Positions 28,855-48,429 of a stretch of DNA of 64,000 nucleotides are shown here, in pieces. Positions within the stretch are counted from its first letter, which is position 1. Each line of letters opens with the position of its first letter. The translations under genes were made by a program, and so were the position numbers. Source of the stretch: Quatrionicoccus australiensis (GTDB taxonomy: Bacteria > Pseudomonadota > Gammaproteobacteria > Burkholderiales > Rhodocyclaceae); NCBI RefSeq assembly GCF_020510525.1, contig NZ_CP075188.1, positions 124,001-188,000 of the forward strand. The letters run 5' to 3'. Below the pieces are notes generated by a model, which did not search any database, was not told the DNA's origin, and worked only from the letters and a program-made list of their open reading frames with translations.

Positions 28855-29056
28855 TGGTGGGAGTGTTTTACCTGGAATGAACTGATTGCTGATCCACTGT
28901 TTCCTTCTGTTTGTATCAGGGAAGCGGGATACTCCCCGGCTTTAACGTAGCAGTGCCGCGGAATCCGAGCTTATCTAGTGCGATTTTGGATTAGCGTTGT
29001 AAGAGTGCAGTGATGCGGTACCGGCGTTCAGAAATCGCTTCAGAAAGTTTGTCACC
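28855..29056 (+). promoter_or_regulatory. Intergenic stretch between maf and the adenylate-forming ligase gene
   Basis: About 200 bases, AT-richer than maf, with no gene. It probably holds the promoter of the ligase gene, but I see no convincing -35/-10 pair. An imperfect inverted segment (GGGATACTCCCC) lies at about 28926-28937. This is the left junction of the island described in the findings. Confidence 0.35.
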
Positions 29057-30562
29057 ATGGATTCCCCTGCTTCTATATTTTCCAGGCTCTCCGATTATTC
29101 GATGACTCTGGGCGAAAAGCTAGCCGTCATAGGCGAGGATGATTGCCTTACGTTTCGACAGCTGAATTTTCTGGTTGGCCAGTTGGCAGCTGATTGCCGA
29201 GGTATCGGGGCAGTCCCCGGACGGGTGGTCGGGTTACGATTTGGCGATCCACTTAAACATCTGGTTGTCAGCTTGGCCTTGCTGAAAGAGCGGGTGACGC
29301 AGGTAGCAATTCCTCCGGGTGGGAGTGCTTCCGTCCAGAAAAAAATACTCGATAGTACGGCAGTGGGGCTGATCGTCGGCGATGTCATTGAGCCATTGTT
29401 CGAAGGTGTACCTCTTGCTTTGATCGATTCCGACTGGCATTGGCGTTGGGAAAAGCCTTTTCCTGTGCGAACTGATCGAATTGCTGTTGATTTGCAAGTT
29501 GCCGGTCCGGCTTTGGTTTTTCTGGGGTCTGGAACCACAGGGCAGCCCAAGGTTATGGCAGTTGATTTTGATTTGCTGAGCCACCTGATAAAGCGGGATT
29601 TGGCAGTTCGTGATTTCAGGGAGGGAGAGCGGCATTATTGCGAGTCATCTCTCGATTACTACACGGCAAAACGACGTACCTTTGGTTGTCTAGCCGCGGG
29701 CGTGACGGTGATGCTTCCCCGGGGACCGGCCCATCGTCTGGTGGCTTACTGTCAGGAACACGGAGTACATCATGTTTCGCTGACGACAAGCCAGGCAACG
29801 ACCATGCTGGCACGCGAACAGGCATTTCCCACTTCTGATTTCCCTCGATTACCTGCCTTGCGCTCGATTTTTGTGGGCAGTTCCCCGGTGAGTGAAAATA
29901 CCCGCCAGCGCATACGCCGTGAAATTTCAGGCCAACTTTTTGTGGTTTACGGTGCGAATGAATTCGGTGAGGCAACCGTTGCTTCACCTGATGACCTGGA
30001 CAGGCATCCTGGTACCGTGGGCAGAGCGTGTCCAGGTGTCTTGCTGGAGGTTGTGGATGATTCCTGCAAGCCTTGTCGGGCTGGCGAGAATGGGCATATT
30101 CGCCTCCAGTCATCGCCGATGATGCATGGATATGAAGGTGATTCCTCCGCCTCGAACAAGAATTTCCGGGATGGCTGGTATTACCCGGGAGATCTCGGGA
30201 GTCTGAGCGAGGACGGTAACCTGATATTTCGGGGAAGACTGGACGACATGATGATTTGCCGGGGGGTGAATATTTACCCGCGGGAAATAGAAGTGGTTCT
30301 GGAGTCGCATCCAGCTGTCAGCGAAGCTGCAGCCTTTCCCATGCGGACTGAAACACTGGACAACTTGCCCTTTGCCGTCGTCGTGTGTGCGGAAAATGTC
30401 AGCGAAGCCGAGCTGATGAAGTACTGCCAGACGCACTTGGGGTGGCGCAGGCCACTGAGAATATTTTTTACCGCAGCTTTGCCACGTAATCAGGCCGGCA
30501 AGGTACTGAAGCGCGTTCTAGCCCAAACTGTGGCGGAGCGGATCAACGCCAGGAAAGTGTAG
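29057..30562 (+). CDS. Adenylate-forming acyl/amino acid ligase (AMP-binding enzyme)
   Basis: This 501-residue ANL-superfamily enzyme should activate a carboxylic acid as acyl-adenylate and pass it to a thiol or amine. Motifs are intact: ALVFLGSGTTGQPKV near residue 152 (A3 phosphate loop), VVYGANEFGEATVA near 296 (A5), GDLGSLSEDGNLIFRGRLDDMM near 379-400 (A7/A8), the hinge ICRGVNIYPREIE, and the catalytic lysine in RNQAGKVLKR near 482 (A10). No carrier domain is attached, and no acyl carrier gene is seen nearby. Closest kinds are acyl-CoA or fatty-acyl-AMP ligases; the substrate is unknown. It converges with the SDR gene at its 3' end. Confidence 0.85.
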   Translation: MDSPASIFSRLSDYSMTLGEKLAVIGEDDCLTFRQLNFLVGQLAADCRGIGAVPGRVVGLRFGDPLKHLVVSLALLKERVTQVAIPPGGSASVQKKILDSTAVGLIVGDVIEPLFEGVPLALIDSDWHWRWEKPFPVRTDRIAVDLQVAGPALVFLGSGTTGQPKVMAVDFDLLSHLIKRDLAVRDFREGERHYCESSLDYYTAKRRTFGCLAAGVTVMLPRGPAHRLVAYCQEHGVHHVSLTTSQATTMLAREQAFPTSDFPRLPALRSIFVGSSPVSENTRQRIRREISGQLFVVYGANEFGEATVASPDDLDRHPGTVGRACPGVLLEVVDDSCKPCRAGENGHIRLQSSPMMHGYEGDSSASNKNFRDGWYYPGDLGSLSEDGNLIFRGRLDDMMICRGVNIYPREIEVVLESHPAVSEAAAFPMRTETLDNLPFAVVVCAENVSEAELMKYCQTHLGWRRPLRIFFTAALPRNQAGKVLKRVLAQTVAERINARKV

Positions 30563-30596
30563 GTTTGCCGATGCGCTTTTTGAAGCTTGTCCGGGG

Positions 30597-31364
30597 CTAG
30601 TAACGGGATATTAGAAGGCCACCGTCAACGTGGATGGCCTCGCCGGTGGCAAAAGGCAGCTTTCCGGTTGCCAATGTTTCGACTGCATTGGCGACATCCG
30701 CTGGCTGGCCCCAGCGATTAATGGGGGAAAATCCGTTGGACAGCCTGCTTTCGTAGGCATCCCTGACCGGCCGGGTCATGTCTGTGGCGATCAGGCCCGG
30801 CCTGATTTCGAAGACATGGATGTTCTCGTCGGCCAGACGAACGGCGAAGAGCTTGGTCATCATGCTCAGGGCCGACTTTGCGATGCAGTATTCGCCGCGG
30901 GTGGTCGAGGCAGCCTCGGCGTTGGACGACGATATGGTGATTATCGAACGGTACGAATTTGTTGGGTTCGCGATCATCCAGCGAGCAATGCGCTGAGTCA
31001 GAAAAAAGTGGGCACGTAAATTGACCGCTATTTGCTCATCGAATGACTCTTCGCTGATGTCCAGTAAATCCCCACGGCTCCTTACCGAGATGCCGGCATT
31101 GTTCACCAGGCAGTCAATGCGTCCGAATCGCTCGATAACGGCGTGCAAAACTCCCTCATGGCGTGTGGTGTCGGAAATATCGAAAGGCAGGGTCAGTACC
31201 TTTGCCCCAAGATTCAACAATCGCTCTTCGGCTGCCTGTAGTGCAGGAGAGTCCTTTTTACCGTTAAGAACGATCGAGAACCCGGCGTCGGCCATGCGCT
31301 CAGCTGTGGCCAGGCCGATACCGCGACTGGAGCCGGTAACCAGTACTACAGGTTTTTCTTCCAT
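30597..31364 (-). CDS. Short-chain dehydrogenase/reductase (FabG-like)
   Basis: This 255-residue NAD(P)-dependent SDR has the cofactor motif VTGSSRGIGLATAERM near residue 10, LVNNAGISVRS near 86, and catalytic serine, tyrosine and lysine in ITISSSNAEA and GEYCIAKSALS near 139-162. The C-terminal PINRWGQPADVANAV...GEAIHVDGG is typical of 3-oxoacyl-ACP reductases, so the substrate may be a beta-keto acyl group or a sugar. I chose the ATG at 31364, which has AGGAAA about 6 bases upstream; an earlier ATG would overlap the ATP-grasp gene. It is the last gene of a three-gene minus-strand unit. Confidence 0.85.
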   Translation of the reverse strand: MEEKPVVLVTGSSRGIGLATAERMADAGFSIVLNGKKDSPALQAAEERLLNLGAKVLTLPFDISDTTRHEGVLHAVIERFGRIDCLVNNAGISVRSRGDLLDISEESFDEQIAVNLRAHFFLTQRIARWMIANPTNSYRSIITISSSNAEAASTTRGEYCIAKSALSMMTKLFAVRLADENIHVFEIRPGLIATDMTRPVRDAYESRLSNGFSPINRWGQPADVANAVETLATGKLPFATGEAIHVDGGLLISRY

Positions 31365-31374
31365 GACGTATTTC

Positions 31375-33183
31375 CTAGCAGACATAGGATTTTAGGTGTG
31401 CGACAAGTCTTTCAGCGCTCGATGTATAGCCCTTCTTTGTGCTTGAAGAAATGTTTTTGCCAACCGTGGTCAATTTGTTGATTTGGTCGACCGGCATGGT
31501 GGTGTAAAGCAATTCGTCGGTTTGAAGAAGAAGAATGATTGCCTCGACGCGGCGGTCAAGCAATAGGGCCTGACAGCGCCTGCTTGCCCCGATGAAGGGA
31601 TAGGGCATGGTTTGTCCTGCCGGGTTGCAGGTGTGTTCGTGGCTGGTGAGAAAACATTGTGTTCCACTGCTGACGAATTCCTGTTGCCTTTGCCGTGCTA
31701 CTGCCAGTGCGGTCTGGTCGCCCACGATGACCTCAATCGGAATGCGGCCATCGTTCGCCAGCAGCCGGTGAAGAAATGCTGGGATATGACTTCGTGAAAT
31801 CTCGGCCCCACCAAACAGGGGGGCGAAATTTACCTCGTTGATGATGGCGCCGTTCTTGTGCCATGGCACTTCAATGTCCGGGGAAATGATGTCGACGCCA
31901 ACGACTTCCAGACCGAACAAACTGGCCGCACGCAGAGCGACGTCCAGATTGTCCGGGTGGAGGCGCTCGGTATACTCTTCATCATGACCACCGCTTGCGG
32001 TCGATTCTATTGCCCTGAGCGGAATCCATACGCCTTCCGGTGGTATCGAGTGCAGTGAGAATCCTGCCGCGGTGATTGCCTGCACGGCGAGGTCGTCGTC
32101 AGGGAAGTGTTCGCTCTTGAGCCATGGTGGACTGTTTGCCTCAATCCGGTTTGCCTCTGCAATCAACTCGGCCACGGTTTGTGTGCCGTTCCCCCGGATG
32201 GATTTTGGTAGTCGTTTCACGGCATAAAGTAATTTGCCGGCAAAGATGAAAAGCCGATGGCAGACACCCGCGACTTCGCGTTCGATGATGATCTGCCTCG
32301 ATTTGGATAGTTTGCTGGCAGCTTCGAATGCCTGGGCAAGTTGCTCGTCGTTGCCTATGCCGACGCTTATTCCCTCTCCTCGGTCCAGGTCGGTAGGTTT
32401 CACGACCACCGGCCAGCCGAGTTTCCGGGCAACCTGAACGGCGTCATCGATGCTGTTGACCACCCCATGCTCAGGGGCAGGAAGCCCCGCCATGCGAATC
32501 AGGTTGGCCGACCAGACCTTGTTCTGGGAAAGCTTGGAACCCATGGCGGAATCTGCGTCTGTCGTTGAACGATCCATTCGCCTTGAATTCGCACCCCAGC
32601 CCAACTGATATACCCCTGCTTCAAGGTGCATGAAGGGAATGTTGAGTCTATGCGCTACGCGAAGTACCGGAATCGTCGATTTCCCGGCAACAACCATCTT
32701 CTGCAGGGATGGTTTGATTTTCTTCTCGATGGTGTTGTAAAGACGCTCCGTGTTTTTCGGTGTCCGTGGCGTGTCAACGCACCATTTCAGCAACTTGACG
32801 GAAAATTCAATCGCGGTTGAAAAGGCTCTTGGCGGAATGTGCTGAATGCTGACGGTCGAGATATCGGCGTTCCAGAGAGAGGAATCCATCTCCTTTCTAA
32901 CGACCTTGTGAATACATCCCGTGTCGAAGGCCGGGATGTTTCCCAGTTGCAGTAGTGCCGTGTTCAACAAAAGGCAGCGCCAAACAAATTCCAGAGGGGT
33001 ACTGCTTACGGCATCATCTGCCTGGTCGGAAGCCGGCTTGACAGGCTTGATGGCCAGAGTGTTTTCAAGCCAGTCGTCGAGTTGCGCAAAATCGATGTGG
33101 TCCGGGCAGTCCAGAACCAGGGTGCGCCGGCGCATTGGTTGCCGTAGTGTATTTGCGGTCTCGGCTGGGAACGAAGTGCTCAT
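31375..33183 (-). CDS. Cyanophycin-synthetase-like ATP-grasp protein with a truncated Mur-type region
   Basis: This 602-residue protein resembles the N-terminal two thirds of cyanophycin synthetase CphA1. Residues 1-200 match its N domain, with the landmark FMHLEAGVYQLGWG near 192. Residues 215-480 form the ATP-grasp domain: LSQNKVWSANLIRMAGLPAP, GWPVVVKPTDLDRGEGISVG, QIIIEREVAG and INEVNFAPLFGG, the expected metal-binding Asn and Glu. The last 110 residues loosely follow the start of the CphA Mur-ligase half (LLLDRRVEAIILLLQTDELL) but lack its GTxGKT P-loop and everything after, so it should catalyse only one ligation. It overlaps the P-loop gene by ATGA. Confidence 0.78.
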   Translation of the reverse strand: MSTSFPAETANTLRQPMRRRTLVLDCPDHIDFAQLDDWLENTLAIKPVKPASDQADDAVSSTPLEFVWRCLLLNTALLQLGNIPAFDTGCIHKVVRKEMDSSLWNADISTVSIQHIPPRAFSTAIEFSVKLLKWCVDTPRTPKNTERLYNTIEKKIKPSLQKMVVAGKSTIPVLRVAHRLNIPFMHLEAGVYQLGWGANSRRMDRSTTDADSAMGSKLSQNKVWSANLIRMAGLPAPEHGVVNSIDDAVQVARKLGWPVVVKPTDLDRGEGISVGIGNDEQLAQAFEAASKLSKSRQIIIEREVAGVCHRLFIFAGKLLYAVKRLPKSIRGNGTQTVAELIAEANRIEANSPPWLKSEHFPDDDLAVQAITAAGFSLHSIPPEGVWIPLRAIESTASGGHDEEYTERLHPDNLDVALRAASLFGLEVVGVDIISPDIEVPWHKNGAIINEVNFAPLFGGAEISRSHIPAFLHRLLANDGRIPIEVIVGDQTALAVARQRQQEFVSSGTQCFLTSHEHTCNPAGQTMPYPFIGASRRCQALLLDRRVEAIILLLQTDELLYTTMPVDQINKLTTVGKNISSSTKKGYTSSAERLVAHLKSYVC

Positions 33184-33800
33184 TCGCTGGTATTCCTTCT
33201 TGCCCTGAGGCGATTTAGCAACTCGCGCACTTGATCAACACGTTGGTCAACCGTACTTGGCTGCGAGGAAAGATAGAGTCGGGGCACGGTAGTCAGTTGC
33301 TCAAGCAAACCCCGGTACATGGCGTGGGAGAGAATGCGCGGACTCAAGCTCTGCTGTCGATGGAGTCCCGCCTCGTTTAACTGCTCATCCTGCAGTCTGA
33401 TCATGGGGGTGATGATGACGAGATCCAATTGTTGAGCCTCTTTTTGTACATGTCCGAGAAGCTTGCGTGTAAGGAGGTCGTTGTCTCGTTGGATCCCGGC
33501 GATCAGCCAGCGCTGAAGTATGTCAAGAGCCCAGCGGTCGGCGATAAAGCCACCGGGGAATTTTTCGTGAAGGGCAACGCGACCATTGAGCCAGCCCTCG
33601 CAGACTTGCCCATAGGCACGCTCTGCACGAGAGATTCTCTCGGGGGATGTCTCGCCTTGTCTCGCTCTGTGGACCTGATTGATTGCTTCGACTACCGGTT
33701 GAAGTTGTTCTTCAATTGCGGGTAGGCCAAGGGCAGCTGACAAGGCATGGCAAAGCGTGGTTTTCCCCGTTCCCCCGGAGCCGGATATCGCGATTTTCAA
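33180..33800 (-). CDS. P-loop kinase-like protein (AAA_28/NadR-type)
   Basis: This roughly 206-residue P-loop NTPase starts KIAISGSGGTGKTTLCHAL, a Walker A of the NadR/deoxynucleoside-kinase-like AAA_28 type. It continues with an acidic EEQLQPVVEAI segment, GGFIADRWALDILQRW (an LID/DRW-type base, as in dNK) and LDLVIITPM. These features suggest phosphorylation of a small molecule rather than a motor ATPase. I propose the TTG at 33800 as start, because GGAG lies 5 bases upstream and the Walker loop follows at once; an ATG at 33851 adds 17 unlikely residues and has no ribosome site. It is the first gene of the minus-strand unit. Confidence 0.65.
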   Translation of the reverse strand: MKIAISGSGGTGKTTLCHALSAALGLPAIEEQLQPVVEAINQVHRARQGETSPERISRAERAYGQVCEGWLNGRVALHEKFPGGFIADRWALDILQRWLIAGIQRDNDLLTRKLLGHVQKEAQQLDLVIITPMIRLQDEQLNEAGLHRQQSLSPRILSHAMYRGLLEQLTTVPRLYLSSQPSTVDQRVDQVRELLNRLRARRNTSE

Positions 33801-33982
33801 TTGATCTCCAAATTTGCAGTTGGGTGCAGGATTTCGACCTGTGCCCCTCATTTATTGGTGATGATAAATCAGTGGCGCAGCTCCGGCGTAACTCGCTGCC
33901 GTCAGGCATTTTTTTGTAAAGAGCGATCTGGTCTTGAAGGTTTCCTTCCATTAAAGTTCAAGACTTGAGGAGCTCAGCGATT
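33801..33982. promoter_or_regulatory. Divergent intergenic region between the kinase-like and nucleotidyltransferase genes
   Basis: About 180 AT-rich bases separate two divergent starts and must hold promoters for both units. A GAGGAG ribosome site lies at 33967-33972, upstream of the nucleotidyltransferase start. I see no clear operator. Confidence 0.4.
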
Positions 33983-34798
33983 ATGGATGATCTGGCAAGA
34001 GCATTGGCGGCGATTGATGGTGTGATGGCCGTTGGATTAGGTGGGTCGAGAGGGCTCGGAATCGCCGATGAGCATTCGGATTATGATTTCGTGCTTTTCC
34101 GCGACGGGGGTGATCCGGTCGATGCCGGACGCATCGGGGCAGCTATCAAGCCATTCGTTGATCGCGCCGATCTGCAGGTAAGTGGCAATTTTGTTCAGGC
34201 ACAGGTTCAGGGAAGAAAGCTTGAAGTCTTTCAAAACGATCTGGCAGTAATAGCGCGTGAAATAGGGATGGCGCAGGCCGGCAAATTTCGCTGGACTGTT
34301 CACCCACTTCTGCCGCACGGCGATCTTAGTACGCGCTCGATAAGCCATTTGGTGTTTACTGAAATCTGTCATGAGAACAATTCAGTAATTCGCACCCTCA
34401 GGGCGAAGGCTCTGCCTTTCCCTTTTCCCCTGAAAAATTCACTGGTCAGGCATTTTATCAGGCAGTCATCCTATTTGATGACGCATGCTGGAAAAGTCAG
34501 AAAAGCGGAGGACGTCCAGAACCTGATTGCATTGATTTCCGGGTTCGTCTATTTCGTGAACATTGTCATTTTTTCCCTGAACGATATGTATCCGGTCCTG
34601 GAGAAGGGAGCAGCCCGGCTTATTCCGACCTTGGCCTATTGCCCTCAAGAATATACCGGAATGGTCAGGGGGCTGTTTCAGGCTGCCCTTGATGGTAATT
34701 CCAAGTCAGTTAATCGGATAATGGCCGGGGTGGTTGGGGAGCTCAAAACTCGTGCTGGAATTGGATTAGGGAAAAATAACGCTCTGATCCATCCTTGA
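33983..34798 (+). CDS. Nucleotidyltransferase-domain protein
   Basis: This 271-residue protein begins with a minimal nucleotidyltransferase fold: AVGLGGSRGLGIADEHSDYDFVLF near residues 15-38 supplies the GS motif and the paired aspartates that bind metal. A helical C-terminal part follows (NLIALISGFVYFVNIVIFSLND), similar to aminoglycoside-nucleotidyltransferase/DUF4037-like proteins. It could transfer a nucleotide to a small molecule, a tRNA-like RNA or a protein. The ATG at 33983 follows GAGGAG by 10 bases. It is divergent from the kinase-like gene and ends before a strong hairpin. Confidence 0.7.
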   Translation: MDDLARALAAIDGVMAVGLGGSRGLGIADEHSDYDFVLFRDGGDPVDAGRIGAAIKPFVDRADLQVSGNFVQAQVQGRKLEVFQNDLAVIAREIGMAQAGKFRWTVHPLLPHGDLSTRSISHLVFTEICHENNSVIRTLRAKALPFPFPLKNSLVRHFIRQSSYLMTHAGKVRKAEDVQNLIALISGFVYFVNIVIFSLNDMYPVLEKGAARLIPTLAYCPQEYTGMVRGLFQAALDGNSKSVNRIMAGVVGELKTRAGIGLGKNNALIHP

Positions 34799-34830
34799 AT
34801 TGAGTACTGAATCCTTCGCGACAATAGAAA

Positions 34831-34855
34831 ACGCCCGATGAAATCCATCGGGCGT
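34831..34855. terminator. Bidirectional terminator hairpin
   Basis: A perfect 10-base stem (ACGCCCGATG / CATCGGGCGT) with a 5-base loop lies 32 bases after the nucleotidyltransferase stop. The minus-strand reading ends in TTTTC, so it also fits as the terminator of the large repeat protein gene. Confidence 0.85.
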
Positions 34856-34979
34856 CTTGTTGACCAAGGGTTGAGCTAGCCAATCCTTCGTAAAAGGTGA
34901 CAACCTATTTCAGGACGGGTTACGTTCGAAAGGAAAGACCACCACAAGGGCAGCCTTTCTTCAAACGTTTATGTCAGGG

Positions 34980-37900
34980 TCAGCCATCTAACAAGTTGCT
35001 GGAGATGATGAGCTCATTCCCAGAAAGATTGACACTGGAAGCCGTCAGACTCTTCAGGCCACCGCCTTGGATCAAGCCGATCTGTTCGAACGAGTAATCG
35101 GAGCCTGAACCATCTGCATCGTAATAGAGTTTACCGGATGAGGTATCCAGCGCCAGTCTGTAGTCACCTGTGGACGCACTGGTCAGATCAATTTTCGCAC
35201 CAATCAGTACTTCATCAATAGTGATCATCGTGTCGTAGGTATCGAACACTAGCTGGTCTTCCGAATTGAAGCCGATGACCGTAGTAAATGCCGGTTCATC
35301 ATTGCCGACGGCATCGAAAAAGTCTTCGCCGAAGCCTGCCCAGTCTATTGCGCTATCACCACCCAGATCAACACTATTGACGCCAGCACCAGCATCGACC
35401 CGATCTTCCCCGCCTCCCAGCCTGATCGTGTCATTACCAGCCCCAGTGTAAACCTGATCAGTGTCGGAACCACCAGTAACCACATTGTTACCATCGCCGG
35501 CACTCACGTAGTTGTAGCCATTGCCGAGTTTGATGGTGTTGTTGCCGTCATCGACATAAACATAATCGGTGCCGGAGCCAGCGGTAATGGTGTTGTCGCC
35601 ATCTTCGCCATGGAAGTGGTTGTCGCCATTCCCGAGCTTTATGGTGTTGTTGCCGTTGCTGACGTAAATATCATCAGTGTCGGCACCGCCGGTGATAGTG
35701 TTGTTACCATCGCCAGTGCTCACGTAGTTGTAGCCATCGCCGAGTTTGATCACGTTGTCGCCATCGCCGACGTAAACATAATCAGTGTCGGCACCGCCGG
35801 TGATGGTGTTGTCACCGTCCTCGCCATAAACATAGTTATCACCGTTACCGAGTTTGATGACATTGTTGCCGTTGCCGACGTAAATATCATCTTCACCGGC
35901 ACCACCTGTGATGACATTGTTGCCATCGGCTCCGTCGAAGTTATACAGGTAGCCATCATCATTAACGAAGTTACCAGCGTAGACAACATTGTAGCCATCG
36001 CCAAGCTTGATCACGTTGTTGCCGCCACCCACGGCGATGTAATCCTCACCATTGCCAGTGGTAATCTTGTTGTCGCCATCGGCGCCGGTAAAGGTGAATG
36101 TGCTGTCTTCGCCATCATAGACAAAGTCACCCGCGTAGATGTAGTTGTTACCGTCTCCGGCCTTGATGGTGTTGTTGCCGCCACCGACAGCAATGAAGTC
36201 ACTGTCTTCGCCACCAGTAATGGTGTTGTCGCCATCTGCACCGCTAAAGCTTCGGTCGCCACCGCTATAGTCGTAGGTGTAGTTGCCGGCATAGACCACG
36301 TTGTAGCCATCTCCGGCATTGATCTTGTTGTCGCCACCGCCAACCCGGATCAGGTCTTGATCATCGCCGGTAGTGATCTTGTTGTTGCCGTCTTCGCCAC
36401 CGTTGAAGCTGATCACGCTGCTGTTGTAAGAAAGATCGCCTGCATAAACGATGTTGTAGCCATCGCCGAGGCTGATTGTGTTGTCACCATTGCCAACGGC
36501 AATGAAATCTTCACCGTCGCCACCGGTGATCTTGTTGTTGCCATCTTCTCCGTAGAAATAGGTGCCACCCATGCCATAACTCAAGTCACCGACATAAGCG
36601 GTGTTGTTGCCATCGCCGAGATTGAGCGTGTTGGTGCCGCCACCGACATAAACCCTATCATCACCGTCGCCACCGGTGATCTTGTTGTCGCCGTCGCCGC
36701 CGTAAACGCTGTAATCCGTGCCGTGGGAAACGGTGCCAGCATAGACAACGTTGTAACCGTCACCGACATTGATGGTGTTGTTGCCGTCGCCCACGAAAAC
36801 ACGGTCTTCACCCGCACCAGTGGTGATCTTGTTGTTGCCGTCGCCACCATTTACGTGGAAACCACCCATGTCGTATGTCACATAATCAGCGGCATAGACG
36901 GTGTTGTACCCGTCACCGGCGTTAATCGTATTGTCGCCGCCACCAACGAAGATGCGATCCGTGTCCTCGCCATCGCTGCCGCCGGTGACCTTGTTGTTGC
37001 CATCTTCGCCAAAGAAGGTGAAGGCGCTCGAATTCGAGAAAATGTCGCCGGCATAGACTGCGTTGTAGCCATTGCCCGTGCTGATGGTGTTGTTGCCACC
37101 ACCGACGTAGATATAGTCGCTGTCAGCGCCGCCGGTGATCTTGTTGTCGCCGTCTGCACCATAGAACGAGAAGGATGTGCTTTCTCCGCTGTCGACATAA
37201 TCACCTGCATACACGACGTTCGAACCATCGCCGGTGATGATCGTGTTATTACCGCCGCCGACTGCAATGAAGTCGGCGTCTGAGCCAGTGGTGATCTTGT
37301 TGTTGCCGTCGGCACCAGTGAAGGTGTCGTCGATATCAGAAGTCGTGCTACCGGCATAGACAGCGTTGTAGCCATCGCCAGCGACGATCTTGTTGTTGCC
37401 GCCACCTACCTGAATGTAATCGTCGTCTTCGCCACCGGTAATGATGTTGTTGCCGTTGCCGGTATGTACGAAGTTTTCGCCGTCACCGGTGACGATCTTG
37501 CTGTTGCCGTTTGCGGTTTCGATATAGTCCTCGCCCGCACCGCCGGTAATGTTGTCGTTACCGTCGAAGGCCCAAATTTCGTTGCCGGCATCGCCGCCAA
37601 CGATCTTGTCGTTGCCGGCGCCGCCGAAGATGTAGTTGCTGTGCGTGGCATCACCGACAATATTGTCGTTGCCAGCGTAAATCAGAGAATTGAACTGAAC
37701 ATTGATGAAGTCATCAGGGGTTCCATCCGACCAACCCTTGGTGTCGATGAACGAGAGTAGTGCCATGGCCTGGACGTTAAGGCCGGTGATGCTGTTGGTT
37801 TGTGTTTCACCGTCTCCCCAATAAATGCCAGTTACTTTACCGCCGGTAACATTGCCTGCATTCAGGGTGAACTTGCCGGTCAAGGTTAGATACAAGTCGC

Positions 37901-38006
37901 CTGACTGAAAGGTGACCGTGGTTGCTGTGTTTGCAACTGTCGCATCTGCGGCGTCGAAGCCGATTTCGTCTACCCAGTTGTTATAGTTGGTTGCCTGGAT
38001 TGCCAT
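34980..38006 (-). CDS. Large RTX-like repeat protein, probable type I secretion substrate
   Basis: This 1008-residue acidic protein has no signal peptide and no cysteine-rich part. Residues 1-105 form an N-terminal domain (TFQSGDLYLTLTGKFTLNAGNVTG) shared with the 717-residue protein downstream. Residues about 108-890 are nonapeptide-like repeats of the GGxGxD type, most with Asn in place of Asp (GGGNNTI, GDGYNVVYAG). Ten units of about 50 residues carry a variable loop after YAG; later units are 36 residues without it. The last 110 residues (DYRLALDTSSGKLYYDADGSGS) match RTX C-termini recognised by type I exporters. The ATG at 38006 has GAGGAGG upstream. Role unknown: surface layer, adhesin or matrix protein are possible. 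Confidence 0.8.
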   Translation of the reverse strand: MAIQATNYNNWVDEIGFDAADATVANTATTVTFQSGDLYLTLTGKFTLNAGNVTGGKVTGIYWGDGETQTNSITGLNVQAMALLSFIDTKGWSDGTPDDFINVQFNSLIYAGNDNIVGDATHSNYIFGGAGNDKIVGGDAGNEIWAFDGNDNITGGAGEDYIETANGNSKIVTGDGENFVHTGNGNNIITGGEDDDYIQVGGGNNKIVAGDGYNAVYAGSTTSDIDDTFTGADGNNKITTGSDADFIAVGGGNNTIITGDGSNVVYAGDYVDSGESTSFSFYGADGDNKITGGADSDYIYVGGGNNTISTGNGYNAVYAGDIFSNSSAFTFFGEDGNNKVTGGSDGEDTDRIFVGGGDNTINAGDGYNTVYAADYVTYDMGGFHVNGGDGNNKITTGAGEDRVFVGDGNNTINVGDGYNVVYAGTVSHGTDYSVYGGDGDNKITGGDGDDRVYVGGGTNTLNLGDGNNTAYVGDLSYGMGGTYFYGEDGNNKITGGDGEDFIAVGNGDNTISLGDGYNIVYAGDLSYNSSVISFNGGEDGNNKITTGDDQDLIRVGGGDNKINAGDGYNVVYAGNYTYDYSGGDRSFSGADGDNTITGGEDSDFIAVGGGNNTIKAGDGNNYIYAGDFVYDGEDSTFTFTGADGDNKITTGNGEDYIAVGGGNNVIKLGDGYNVVYAGNFVNDDGYLYNFDGADGNNVITGGAGEDDIYVGNGNNVIKLGNGDNYVYGEDGDNTITGGADTDYVYVGDGDNVIKLGDGYNYVSTGDGNNTITGGADTDDIYVSNGNNTIKLGNGDNHFHGEDGDNTITAGSGTDYVYVDDGNNTIKLGNGYNYVSAGDGNNVVTGGSDTDQVYTGAGNDTIRLGGGEDRVDAGAGVNSVDLGGDSAIDWAGFGEDFFDAVGNDEPAFTTVIGFNSEDQLVFDTYDTMITIDEVLIGAKIDLTSASTGDYRLALDTSSGKLYYDADGSGSDYSFEQIGLIQGGGLKSLTASSVNLSGNELIISSNLLDG
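35340..37685 (-). repeat. Tandem coding repeats of the RTX-like protein
   Basis: The DNA encodes nonapeptide-type beta-roll turns in tandem. Ten longer units of about 150 bases each contain a variable loop; after them come 108-base units without loops. Recurrent translated blocks are ADGDNKITGG, DYIYVGGGNN and GDGYNVVYAG. The array is prone to recombination, so copy number may vary between strains. Confidence 0.8.
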
Positions 38007-38126
38007 GATTGACCTCCTCATTATTAATTGAAAATCCCCGGGCTGTACGGACAACCCATTAGGTTTTTAGTCTATCTGTGACTCTATGGGTTGACAAGTA
38101 AATAAGGGTCAATTTGCTTGCCTTTT
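38007..38126 (-). promoter_or_regulatory. Promoter candidate for the large repeat protein
   Basis: On the minus strand a TTGTCA box (38090-38095) is followed after 17 bases by TAGACT (38067-38072), a moderate sigma-70-like pair. The leader then runs to the GAGGAGG ribosome site at about 38013-38019. No other gene is seen. Confidence 0.45.
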
Positions 38127-39230
38127 TTACTCCGTTGTGGGAAAGAGGTTGTACTTGTTTGGGGATATCTGTGTGGTCGGGTGACGCCCTGCAGCCCGAA
38201 TCATTGCTGCTGCTTGTGTTCCCCCATCGGCGCAGGGTGGGGGGAGGGTGGGCTTTGACCAGAGTTCTTCGAGCGCAGTCTGAACATTTCCCCTTTTTAA
38301 GGCTTCGGCATCGATTTCCCGGCTGTTGCCATTTCTGGCCAACCAAGCGATGAGGCATTCTTGTTCCGGCCAATCGACGCGGCGTAGATAAAGTACTGGC
38401 GTGCCATTGCAGGCTGCTTCGGTGAAAGTGCCGTAACCGGGTTTGGTAATGATGGCGTCTACCGAGCAGAGTAGATCGGTAAAGCTTAGGCCGAATTGTT
38501 CAAGTGCCATGGCATTGGGGTGAGTGCAGTGCCAGCTACCTGGCACCAGCCAGCGAATACCGGATTGTTGTGGCCAGTTTTCCAACGGAATGCGATGCTG
38601 GATACCTCCCATTGCGACAAGAACAACACGGTCGGAACCGAGGCCGAGATCATGGCTCTTTCCCGATGCGGCAATCGGGTCAAGTATTTTGACGTTGTCG
38701 AGCATTTTCATCGGCATCCCGGGCGTAACGCGCAGGAATGCCCAAGCGGTGCGATAGGCCTCAAGCATGTCGGCGTGAATTGGCGTGGCCCAGCTTTCGC
38801 CGCCGAAAAAATGGGCAAACAGATCAGCCCAATTCAGCGAGCAGATGCTCAGCGCCGGAATGCCGTTCAGCGCGGCGCCGGCCAGCGGCAGATAGCTGAC
38901 ATTGCTAAGCACGCGGTCGACCTGCCGGCTGGCCAGTAAACGGCCTTCGCCGGCGACTCGCGCCGCCCAGCCGGCATGCGCGGCGCGGTAGGCGCGGGCG
39001 CTGGCCGGGCGGTCGATGCGGGTGGCATCCTGCATCACGTAGCCAAAGTCGCTGGCCGCCCGAATGTGCTCGAATTCCTGGTGGATGCGCTGGCGCAGGA
39101 TTTCCGGTGCGAGGCCGCTCCTGACGGTCAACCTTAGATCAGGAGTGCTTTTTGCCAGTGCGTCAAGTACCGGAGCACTGATTGCAAGGTGTCCGAAGCC
39201 GTGGCTCGATATATCCGCAAAAATATGCAC
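38127..39230 (-). CDS. MurG/GT1-like glycosyltransferase
   Basis: This 367-residue GT-B-type protein opens HIFADISSHGFGHLAI, the GxGH start of MurG- and arabinokinase-associated glycosyltransferases. It has SICSLNWADLF near residue 130, VVLVAMGGIQHRIPLENWP near 205, and the acceptor/donor site DAIITKPGYGTFTEAACNGTPVLYLRR near 262-288, followed by WPEQECLIAWL. This is GT1/GT28-like. It lies between the two RTX-like genes on the same strand, so it may glycosylate them or a shared surface glycan; that is inference. Its codons are GC-richer at the N-terminal end. Confidence 0.75.
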   Translation of the reverse strand: MHIFADISSHGFGHLAISAPVLDALAKSTPDLRLTVRSGLAPEILRQRIHQEFEHIRAASDFGYVMQDATRIDRPASARAYRAAHAGWAARVAGEGRLLASRQVDRVLSNVSYLPLAGAALNGIPALSICSLNWADLFAHFFGGESWATPIHADMLEAYRTAWAFLRVTPGMPMKMLDNVKILDPIAASGKSHDLGLGSDRVVLVAMGGIQHRIPLENWPQQSGIRWLVPGSWHCTHPNAMALEQFGLSFTDLLCSVDAIITKPGYGTFTEAACNGTPVLYLRRVDWPEQECLIAWLARNGNSREIDAEALKRGNVQTALEELWSKPTLPPPCADGGTQAAAMIRAAGRHPTTQISPNKYNLFPTTE

Positions 39231-45648: not shown

Positions 45649-46941
45649 TTACACAAAACGCGCGACGAAGGATTTGGTGTACAAGGCCGGCAAATCAACC
45701 CAGACCCGGTGACCGCTGCCCGGCGCGACGGTGATGGCCTCGCCGGCCTTGTTTTCCATGCGCAGCAGTTGCCAGACATGGTTGCCGGCCGGATGCACGC
45801 ATTCGAGGCGGTCGCCGACGGTAAACTTGTTTTTGACCTCGATTTCCATCAGGCCGCGTACCTCGTCGAAACGCACGGCGTCACCGACGTAGAGGCTGCG
45901 TTCCGATTCCGAATGGCCGCGCAGGTAGTTCTGGTAATCGGCATCGTGGTGGCGCTGGTAGAAGCCATCGGTGTAGCCGCGGTTGGCGAGGCCTTCCAGT
46001 TCGCTGAGCAGTTTCGGGTCGAGCGGCCGGCCGGCGACGGCATCGTCGATCGCCTGGCGATAGGATTGCGCGGTGCGTGCGACGTAATACGGGCTCTTGG
46101 TGCGGCCCTCGATCTTCAGCGAATCGACGCCGATCTCGACCAGGCGCTGGACATGCTCGATGGCGCGCAGGTCCTTGGAGTTCATGATGTAGGTGCCGTG
46201 CTCGTCTTCCTCGATCGGCATCAGTTCGCCCGGACGCTGGCGTTCTTCGAGCAGGATTTCCTGGTCGGGGTGGCTGTAGAACTGTACCGGCTGGTTCAGT
46301 GTCTCGCCGGGCTTGTCCGAGCTCGACACCTTGTAATCCCAGCGGCAGGAGTTGGTGCAACTGCCCTGATTCGGATCGCGGTGATTGAAGTAGCCGGAGA
46401 GCAGGCAGCGGCCGGAATAGGCGATGCACAGCGCGCCGTGGATGAAGACTTCGAGTTCGATGTCCGGGCATTGCTGGCGGATTTCGGCGACTTCGTCGAG
46501 CGACAGTTCGCGCGACAGGATGATGCGGGTGAGCCCGAGCTTCTTCCAGAAACGCACGGCCGCCCAGTTCACGGTATTGGACTGGACCGAGAGGTGGACC
46601 GCCTGGTCCGGCCAGGTTTCGCGAACCATGTCGATCAGGCCGGGGTCTGACATGATCAGCGCGTCCGGCTTCAGTTCGATGACCGGCGCCATGTCGGCAA
46701 GATAGGTGGTGAGCTTGGCGTTGTGCGGGAAGATGTTGCTGACGACAAAAAACTGCTTGCCGCGGGCGTGGGCTTCGTCGATGCCTTCCTTGAGCGCGCC
46801 TATGGTGCTGAAGGAGTTGTTGCGCACGCGCAGGCTGTAACGCGGCTGTCCGGCGTAGATTGCGTCGGCACCGAAATCGAAGGCGGTGCGCATCATTTCG
46901 AGCGAGCCGGCAGGGGCGAGAAGTTCAGGCGCCTTGCGCAT
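45649..46941 (-). CDS. trhP: U32 family tRNA hydroxylation protein TrhP (YegQ)
   Basis: This 430-residue U32-family protein is related to YegQ/TrhP, which is needed for the 5-hydroxyuridine step of wobble-uridine modification in tRNA. It starts PELLAPAGSLEMMRTAFDFGADAIYAG, then VSNIFPHN near 72. The cysteine cluster IAYSGRCLLSGYFNHRDPNQGSC...C near 165-190 probably binds an iron-sulfur centre. KIEGRTKSPYYVA near 275 completes the family signature. The ATG at 46941 is only 36 bases from the divergent rng start. An open frame further upstream crosses rng and is not real. Confidence 0.9.
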   Translation of the reverse strand: MRKAPELLAPAGSLEMMRTAFDFGADAIYAGQPRYSLRVRNNSFSTIGALKEGIDEAHARGKQFFVVSNIFPHNAKLTTYLADMAPVIELKPDALIMSDPGLIDMVRETWPDQAVHLSVQSNTVNWAAVRFWKKLGLTRIILSRELSLDEVAEIRQQCPDIELEVFIHGALCIAYSGRCLLSGYFNHRDPNQGSCTNSCRWDYKVSSSDKPGETLNQPVQFYSHPDQEILLEERQRPGELMPIEEDEHGTYIMNSKDLRAIEHVQRLVEIGVDSLKIEGRTKSPYYVARTAQSYRQAIDDAVAGRPLDPKLLSELEGLANRGYTDGFYQRHHDADYQNYLRGHSESERSLYVGDAVRFDEVRGLMEIEVKNKFTVGDRLECVHPAGNHVWQLLRMENKAGEAITVAPGSGHRVWVDLPALYTKSFVARFV

Positions 46942-46977
46942 AGTAGAATCCAGCAAAAACCGCGAATTGTAGAGTGT

Positions 46978-48429
46978 ATGAGCGAAGAAATACTGATCAA
47001 TTTCACGCCGCAGGAGACCCGCGTTGCCGTGATGCAACAAGGCGTTGTCCAGGAATTGCATATCGAGCGCACCGCCAGCCGCGGTCTGGTCGGTAATGTC
47101 TATCTCGGACGCGTCGTGCGCATCCTGCCCGGCATGCAGTCGGCATTCGTCGATGTCGGGCTTGAACGCACCGCTTTCCTGCATGTTGCCGATATCTGGC
47201 AACCGCGCGAGACGGCCACCGAGCGGCCGATCGAGAAAATCCTCTTCGACGGTCAGAGCGTTCTCGTGCAGGTCGTCAAGGACCCGATCGGGACCAAGGG
47301 CGCCCGCTTGTCGACGCAGATTTCGATCGCCGGCCGCATGCTGGTCTATCTGCCGCAGGAAAAACATATCGGCATTTCGCAGCGCATCGAGTCCGAAGCC
47401 GAGCGCGAGATGTTGCGCGAGAAGATCACCCGCCTCGTGCCGGCTGACGAGAAGGGCGGTTTCATCGTCCGCACCATGGCCGAGAATGCCAGCGACCAGG
47501 AGTTCGCCAACGACATCGCCTACCTGCGCAAGACCTGGGCCGACATTCGCGAAAAGGCCCGCGTTTCGCCACCGCCCAGCGTGCTCTATCAGGAGCTGTC
47601 GCTCGGCCAGCGCGTACTGCGTGACTTCGTCAATCCGGAAACCGGCCGCATCGTCATCGACTCGCGCGAAAACTTTCAGAAACTGACCGGCTTTGCCGAG
47701 GAATACACGCCGGCCGTACTGCCCTTGCTTGATCACTACATTGGCCAGCGACCGCTGTTCGATCTCTACGGCGTCGAGGAAGAAATCCAGAAGGCGCTGG
47801 CCCGCCGCGTCGATCTCAAGTCGGGCGGCTACCTGATCATCGACCAGACCGAGGCGATGACCACCATCGACGTCAATACCGGCGGTTTCGTCGGCGTGCG
47901 CAATTTCGACGACACCATCTTCAAGACCAATCTCGAAGCCGCCGTCACCATCGCCCGCCAGCTGCGCCTGCGCAACCTGGGCGGCATCATCATCGTCGAT
48001 TTCATCGACATGGAAAACGAAGAGCACAAGAAGGCCGTGCTCGAGGAATTCAACAAGGCGCTGGCGCGCGACCATACGCGCCTGACGGTCAACGGCTTCA
48101 CGGCACTTGGTCTGGTCGAGATGACGCGCAAACGGACGCGCGAATCGCTCGCCCACATCCTCTGCCAGCCCTGTCCGACCTGTGGCGGGCGCGGCGAGGT
48201 CAAGACGGCGCGCACCGTGGCCTACGAAATCCTGCGCGAGCTGCTGCGCGAGGCGCGTCAGTTCAATGCCCGCGAATACCGCATCCTGGCCGGGCCGGCC
48301 GTCGTTGATCTCTTCCTTGACGAAGAGTCGCAGGCGCTGGCCATGCTTTCCGACTTCATCGAGAAGCCGGTTTCCCTGCAGTCGGAGCCGAGCTACTCAC
48401 CGGAGCAGTACGACATTGTTTTGATGTAA
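46978..48429 (+). CDS. rng: Ribonuclease G
   Basis: This 483-residue endoribonuclease matures 16S rRNA and trims mRNAs. An S1 RNA-binding domain occupies residues 35-120 (GNVYLGRVVRILPGMQSAFVDVG). The catalytic DNase-I-like part has TTIDVNTGGFVG near 297 and IIIVDFIDM near 338, supplying the metal-binding aspartates. The zinc-link CPTCGGRGEV near 399 fits the RNase E/G family. Length and lack of the long RNase E C-terminal arm indicate RNase G. It usually lies just after maf; here the island from 29 to 46 kb lies between. Confidence 0.95.
   Translation: MSEEILINFTPQETRVAVMQQGVVQELHIERTASRGLVGNVYLGRVVRILPGMQSAFVDVGLERTAFLHVADIWQPRETATERPIEKILFDGQSVLVQVVKDPIGTKGARLSTQISIAGRMLVYLPQEKHIGISQRIESEAEREMLREKITRLVPADEKGGFIVRTMAENASDQEFANDIAYLRKTWADIREKARVSPPPSVLYQELSLGQRVLRDFVNPETGRIVIDSRENFQKLTGFAEEYTPAVLPLLDHYIGQRPLFDLYGVEEEIQKALARRVDLKSGGYLIIDQTEAMTTIDVNTGGFVGVRNFDDTIFKTNLEAAVTIARQLRLRNLGGIIIVDFIDMENEEHKKAVLEEFNKALARDHTRLTVNGFTALGLVEMTRKRTRESLAHILCQPCPTCGGRGEVKTARTVAYEILRELLREARQFNAREYRILAGPAVVDLFLDEESQALAMLSDFIEKPVSLQSEPSYSPEQYDIVLM

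Follow-up and report, generated by a model that had tools for sequence, protein, structure and literature searches.

Introduction

Carrier-free assembly of amide products by an adenylate-forming (ANL) ligase and an ATP-grasp ligase is exemplified by the dapdiamide pathway. Among ATP-grasp enzymes, the cyanophycin synthetase CphA2 consists of an N domain and an ATP-grasp domain with a reduced Mur-like domain. CphA2 is described as having a single active site and as repolymerizing β-Asp-Arg (PMC10206079), and stand-alone adenylate-forming and ATP-grasp ligases are described together, in pathways without a nonribosomal peptide synthetase (NRPS), for cystargolide and E-64 (PMC12568646). Here we describe five enzyme genes in a 64,000-nucleotide stretch of the Quatrionicoccus australiensis genome (the window), which encode an ANL ligase (ACS), a short-chain dehydrogenase/reductase (SDR), a cyanophycin-synthetase-like ATP-grasp ligase (GRASP), a P-loop kinase, and a nucleotidyltransferase. 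Our preferred but tentative explanation is that they form a horizontally acquired, carrier-free amide-assembly cassette, the product of which may be linked to RTX1, a secreted RTX surface protein inherited with the cassette.

The ligase pair

Among proteins of solved structure, GRASP is closest to cyanophycin synthetases, with 243 bits to 7wac and 215 bits to 8fxh, a structure that we take to be CphA2 and that GRASP resembles in length. It scores far below the cut-offs of both CphA models (204 of 850 bits for TIGR02068 and 223 of 877 bits for NF010623). The C-terminal part of GRASP aligns to the start of a Mur-ligase domain, the P-loop of that domain is missing and the protein ends at residue 602; without the P-loop, only the ATP-grasp site should work. 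The candidate residues of this site, which we presume to be the ATP-grasp residues, are invariant in a 32-row alignment. N-acetylglutaminylglutamine synthetase (TIGR03103) was considered as an identity for GRASP and rejected, because the score is 120 of 569 bits, the ATP-grasp part alone is matched, and that family has an acetyltransferase half ahead of its ATP-grasp.

ACS matches the AMP-binding (114 bits) and AMP-binding_C (41 bits) families, and the A3, A5, A7, A8, and A10 ANL core motifs were found in it by pattern search. A protein search for GRASP across 5.8 billion proteins, with 7999 candidates scored, gave 581 homologues, of which 120 were listed; 11 of these 120 carry AMP-binding domains, five of them PF00501. 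Two of the 120 (P0048 and P0096) have a SapC domain (PF07277) fused ahead of the ATP-grasp ligase. A genome scan yielded 74 GRASP loci. A single open frame encodes both ACS and GRASP in 15 of them (L051 and L071, for example), 7 have the two genes side by side on the same strand, and another 6 contain both within the locus; L066 was scored as adjacent by the counting script although both domains are in one 1094-aa open reading frame (ORF). Betaproteobacteria, Alphaproteobacteria, and Campylobacterota have the one-frame arrangement, as do bins assigned by their labels to other phyla. These arrangements indicate that ACS and GRASP are a true, often fused pair. Genes in the loci were called with a home-made caller, and some were missed or shortened in GC-rich DNA. 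One 19.5-kb locus (L117) has four ATP-grasp paralogues clustered with glycosyltransferase and phosphodiesterase genes.

The genome that contains the window encodes three further full-length ligases of the ACS kind, and in a phylogenetic tree each of them groups, in a starred clade, with GRASP-fused ligases of other bacteria. Ligase hits covering less than 330 residues of the query were kept out of the set for the tree, as were thirteen loci that were duplicates or from the window's own genome; three NRPS A-domain rows were also excluded. The window ACS pairs with the ligase of L054 at 85/92 support, a placement that is unsure because L054 is a long branch. The A domains of the NRPS found in the genus form a separate starred clade, and we rejected ACS as part of that NRPS. 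Another site in the same genome (L146, C1:1592000-1611000) has ligase genes of the ACS kind, one apparently incomplete, adjoining sulfotransferase-like pieces. An SDR relative (46% identity) lies next to an ACS in L054 alone; weaker SDR hits of 24–33% in L078, L087, L090, L093, and L097 say little, because the SDR family is so common. The SDR protein of the window matches its family at 170 bits, with TGxxxGIG, NNAG, and YxxxK found by pattern search. We take these motifs, and those found in the same way in ACS, the kinase, and the nucleotidyltransferase, to carry their usual meanings.

The insertion and its contents

Several features set the five genes and RTX1 apart from their surroundings (Table 1). 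From 29 to 42 kb, GC content in 1-kb intervals is 0.50–0.56, and the flanking intervals have 0.59–0.67, except the last, which has 0.55 at 49 kb. When 25 genomes of the genus were searched at the DNA level, the matches listed included none to positions 29057-34798; many of the 25 matched maf, the glycosyltransferase-like (GT-like) gene, the enoyl-CoA hydratase gene, and acsA. In the relative G839, the alignments to maf and to the GT-like gene end 173 bp apart, and those on either side of the RTX2 site about 7 bp apart. RTX1 is absent from the site in the relatives' loci that were fetched. Because of the low GC content, the lack of a listed match in the genus, and the adjoining maf and GT-like genes in G839, the five genes and RTX1 look like a single insertion where the 3′ ends of maf and of the GT-like gene face each other, with RTX2 placed separately beyond the GT-like gene. 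The original prediction took the five genes as a whole unit, and this boundary has to be widened to include RTX1.

Table 1 Features of the cassette and its surroundings in the window.
Feature	Position	Strand	Remarks
Inserted DNA between maf and GT-like gene	28855..38126		boundaries approximate
ACS, adenylate-forming (ANL) ligase, 501 aa	29057..30562	+	intact core motifs
SDR reductase, 262 aa	30597..31385	-	NF009386, 353 bits (cut-off 250)
GRASP, cyanophycin-synthetase-like ATP-grasp ligase, 602 aa	31375..33183	-	
P-loop kinase, deoxynucleoside-kinase/NadR-like predicted fold	33180..33851	-	likely start about 33800
Nucleotidyltransferase, kanamycin/lincosamide-nucleotidyltransferase-like predicted fold	33965..34798	+	likely start 33983
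Perfect 10-bp inverted repeat, terminator-like	34831..34855		between convergent nucleotidyltransferase and RTX1 genes
RTX1, RTX calcium-binding repeat protein, 1024 aa	34980..38054	-	PF00353, 194 bits; GC 0.529
GT-like protein gene	38127..39230	-	conserved in genus; outside insertion
RTX2, RTX protein related to RTX1, 717 aa	39312..41465	-	between GT-like and enoyl-CoA hydratase genes

All five ORFs are open over the coordinates in Table 1 and belong to the families originally proposed for them, the fifth by its predicted fold. The predicted gene arrangement also stands: ACS and SDR converge with a gap of 34 bp, the kinase stop and the GRASP start share an ATGA, GRASP runs 11 bp into SDR, and the inverted repeat follows the nucleotidyltransferase gene. 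This repeat was not among the hits of a terminator scan that itself returned 8 hits against 7.4 expected. Elsewhere in the window, rng is overlapped by a long ORF of the minus strand (45649-48156) that has a U32 peptidase domain; for the peptidase gene proper, a start near 46700 is probable.

The insertion site holds different cargo in related genomes. In 7 of the 16 relatives' loci that were fetched (L129, L130, L131, L132, L133, L136, and L137), a protein of 1333–1341 aa with ligase similarity is encoded between maf and the GT-like gene, and in other relatives, such as L135, L139, and L141, the site is nearly empty. One of the large proteins, scanned against NCBIfam, matched a Pls/PosA-family NRPS (812 bits, cut-off 423), and two scanned against Pfam contain AMP-binding domains. 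A small gene was called beside the large NRPS-like gene in five of the seven loci; the one in L130 scored 19 bits against phosphopantetheinyl transferases, below the cut-off of 25. The GT-like gene, present in relatives at 57–66% identity, may be a partner of the large NRPS-like gene there. Its product has no Pfam or NCBIfam match, and its label comes from the look of the sequence. We considered and rejected an element bounded by a tRNA gene or repeats, since no tRNA gene was found in 26-44 kb and no shared ends were obvious by eye when two relatives' sites were aligned with the two junctions.

Genes near GRASP in other genomes

Neighbouring genes that had no family search are labelled here from readings of their sequences. 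A search of 45 genomes found 60 autotransporter-domain matches, six of them no more than 6 kb from GRASP (L055, L069 of Castellaniella sp. S9, L070, L083 of Neptunomonas antarctica, L085, and L092). The expected number is 0.2, a chance value that assumes one GRASP per genome. Large genes with GSTN-rich or RTX-like composition make up 16 of the 94 large genes within 4 kb of GRASP and 4 of the 82 farther away. The distances had been surveyed beforehand in a set that excluded L001, L002, L009–L031, and L106–L109. Counted by locus, a surface-type gene is found within 4 kb of GRASP in 16 of 69 (the 74 loci less three duplicates and two poor matches). In L032 an RTX protein gene lies beside a LapD-type gene, with a similar arrangement in L051, and in L049/L112 the gene for a 2611-aa protein is accompanied by what reads as a type I secretion set. 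TctC-type receptor genes occur near GRASP in seven loci, and we give them no weight because such genes are numerous in these genomes.

In eleven loci of the neighbour-family survey, from which eleven duplicate loci were excluded, a gene of one family (137–365 aa as called, the shortest being pieces) lies within 1 kb of GRASP, often tail to tail with it (for example L082, 11758-12696, and L118, 10803-11849). The two of these eleven genes that were scanned match TIGR04267, the aKG-HExxH peptide beta-hydroxylases. TIGR04267 gave 12 matches in 48 genomes, or 11 after merging one genome reached twice, and 9 of the 11 lie beside GRASP, those of G700 and G704 being elsewhere; the chance value for this adjacency is crude. 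Published aKG-HExxH members are described as hydroxylating ribosomal precursor peptides (PMC12636437). A sulfotransferase-type motif was found in 7 of 1062 genes, in 5 of 83 loci, and in 0 of 224 control genes, a count from which fourteen loci were excluded and which falls to four loci if L075 is set aside by eye. Sulfate-assimilation genes neighbour GRASP in Sulfurimonas, where they fit a sulfation theme and could equally be housekeeping genes. In three Sulfurimonas loci (L034, L036, and L086) an ornithine-cyclodeaminase-family gene lies directly upstream of the ATP-grasp gene, and L040, L043, L053, and L092 contain an acetyltransferase plus beta-keto-acid-cleavage fusion.

The kinase and the nucleotidyltransferase

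Structure prediction, proposed originally as a check, placed both proteins in recognizable folds. The nucleotidyltransferase has no Pfam or NCBIfam match and no significant match among sequences of solved structures, and its predicted fold is that of a two-domain, aminoglycoside-type (kanamycin/lincosamide-like) nucleotidyltransferase; a GGS-DxD motif was found in it by pattern search. Many relatives start at the inner ATG (33983), which makes this the more likely start. None of its 24 homologues carries a function name. Within the family, it is present in 4 of 395 genomes and GRASP (E 1e-55) in 6 of 395, drawn in two samples that share the same handles where listed. All four nucleotidyltransferase genomes are among the six GRASP genomes (p is about 1.5e-8 when counted by genome and 8e-5 when counted by genus, to be read with the caution that G324 and G453 belong to the same genus). 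The two genes are far apart in G324 and on different contigs in G453. In G324, the nucleotidyltransferase gene adjoins genes for a TPR protein, a protein with the sulfotransferase motif, and an autotransporter-like protein. In the wider set it occurs in 2 of 47 GRASP genomes, our own and Thauera, so we rejected it as a general GRASP partner, though the match is complete within the family.

The kinase matches AAA_28 (P-loop, 27.8 bits), contains a Walker A and a DRW motif by pattern search, and has the predicted fold of a deoxynucleoside or NadR-type kinase. Its matches to sequences of solved structures are mainly short and confined to the P-loop. Since its relatives start there, it likely starts at the inner TTG at about 33800. 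Eight homologues were found. Within the order, the kinase is present in 1 of 399 genomes, the one studied here, in a search that scored 7 of often dozens of first-look candidates per genome and could miss distant relatives. Among the 47 GRASP-linked genomes, relatives occur in two besides our own: in G702 a 32% relative is on a contig with GRASP and ACS genes, and in G725 a relative is beside proteins that read as autotransporter-like and RTX-like. From these counts we rejected the kinase, too, as a general GRASP partner. Homologues of GRASP (P0012, 55%), the kinase (P0125, 53%), and the nucleotidyltransferase (P0135, 54%) all come from contigs with a recorded length of 14461 bases, and we take these to be one and the same contig.

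Discussion

Intact enzymes, the pairing of ACS with GRASP, an insertion that includes RTX1, and surface-protein enrichment around GRASP elsewhere can all be read from the sequences. The best-supported chemistry for the cassette is that an ANL ligase and an ATP-grasp ligase form amides without a carrier, as in the cystargolide and E-64 pathways. We infer the substrates and product, the sequence of reactions, and the RTX1 link as follows. The SDR would shape a hydroxy or keto acid, and ACS would adenylate a carboxylic acid and pass it to an amine, or to CoA. GRASP would phosphorylate a second carboxylate to form another amide, as does the ATP-grasp half of cyanophycin synthetase. The kinase and nucleotidyltransferase would transfer phosphate or AMP to a hydroxyl group, either of the product or of an intermediate, and the finished group would decorate RTX1 or be displayed with it. 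We favour the link to RTX1 because of the shared insertion and the neighbour statistics.

A number of observations weigh against this explanation. No ACS hit at threshold was found in 46 of the 74 GRASP loci, no GRASP was found in the 19 kb read around each ACS paralogue of the same genome, and that genome has no TIGR04267 hydroxylase. Within 4 kb of GRASP, 53 of 69 loci have no surface-type gene. The p value for large surface-type genes (0.009) is soft, because the 4-kb cut was chosen after seeing the distances and the far genes are close to it, three of the four being only 4.1–4.6 kb away. RTX repeats are common, with at least 52 matches in the genome studied here, and RTX adjacency alone is thus weak evidence. 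A free metabolite is also nearly as likely as a product linked to RTX1, and the folds predicted for the kinase and nucleotidyltransferase, being typical of small-molecule enzymes, would fit it as well.

Such a metabolite could be a diffusible pseudopeptide that acts as a protease inhibitor, antimetabolite, or signal. An ANL amide synthetase and an ATP-grasp ligase would make it, the kinase and nucleotidyltransferase would serve in self-protection or activation, and the RTX gene would be a passenger. We consider this somewhat less likely than the link to RTX1. Three points weigh against it: no exporter gene is among the genes seen in the insertion, surface-type genes are enriched near GRASP, and the nucleotidyltransferase gene of G324 keeps company with surface-type and sulfotransferase-motif neighbours. 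It is less probable that the ligases supply a surface glycan with an amino-acid or acyl side group and that the GT-like protein takes part. GRASP in L054 and the ACS–GRASP pair in L152 do occur among glycan-type genes, and the sulfotransferase-type motif is absent from the control genes, but these gene labels are readings of sequence starts and the motif difference is small; moreover, the GT-like gene predates the insertion and is present at the site in relatives that have no cassette. More improbable still is a chance accumulation of unrelated imported genes at a hot spot for insertion. The varied cargo of the site would suit such a coincidence, as would the fact that no other locus read holds all five genes, which leaves the idea of exactly five as a conserved set unsupported. 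The gene-neighbourhood comparison suggested with that idea did find recurring subsets, ACS with GRASP and the nucleotidyltransferase with GRASP, and the one-frame ligases, this co-occurrence, and the three homologues on 14461-base contigs argue against coincidence, least strongly for the SDR.

Returning to a cassette with a product linked to RTX1, a broader proposal is that ACS and GRASP form the centre of a not yet described system that modifies large secreted surface proteins, such as autotransporters and RTX adhesins. The ligases would build or attach an amide-linked group, alternative partners (an HExxH or 2-oxoglutarate oxygenase, a sulfotransferase, a kinase, or a nucleotidyltransferase) would prepare or cap a hydroxyl, and the system would travel between genomes with its protein substrate. 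This generalization is speculative, and we regard it as unlikely at present. The earlier suggestion of small-molecule joining or surface modification gains from the often fused ligase pair and the enriched surface neighbours, and is thus partly supported.

The chemistry is known. In limited searches of the open-licence literature, we found among the papers listed no account of the fused ANL and CphA-like ATP-grasp protein or of its surface-protein link; the widespread one-frame ligase pair has no assigned reaction in those listings. If decoration of an adhesin is correct, it would be an amide-linked modification of secreted surface proteins, of which the same listings show none. If the product is instead a free pseudopeptide, the ligase pair would offer a readable marker by which to recognize a family of natural products made without NRPSs.

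Comparison with described systems places the cassette near several of them. GRASP is like CphA1 and CphA2 in the ATP-grasp region and in part of the N-terminal region. However, CphA1 combines ATP-grasp with a Mur-ligase domain that has a P-loop, whereas GRASP has the ATP-grasp and lacks the P-loop in the aligned stretch, and GRASP is often in one frame with an ANL ligase, an arrangement that we know of in no CphA. Relatives of GRASP neighbour a hydroxylase as in aKG-HExxH peptide beta-hydroxylase systems, whereas the window's genome has none. The kinase is about 15% identical to deoxynucleoside kinases and the NadR ribosylnicotinamide kinase, and the nucleotidyltransferase about 10% identical to kanamycin/aminoglycoside and lincosamide nucleotidyltransferases, with folds that are alike by prediction; unlike the latter enzymes, the nucleotidyltransferase is found, within the family, only in GRASP genomes. 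As in the dapdiamide, cystargolide, and E-64 pathways, a stand-alone ANL ligase and an ATP-grasp ligase occur together in the window. In contrast to those pathways, the ATP-grasp ligase of the cassette is CphA-like, the two ligases are frequently fused, and the pair is associated with secreted surface proteins and has a kinase and a nucleotidyltransferase as partners.

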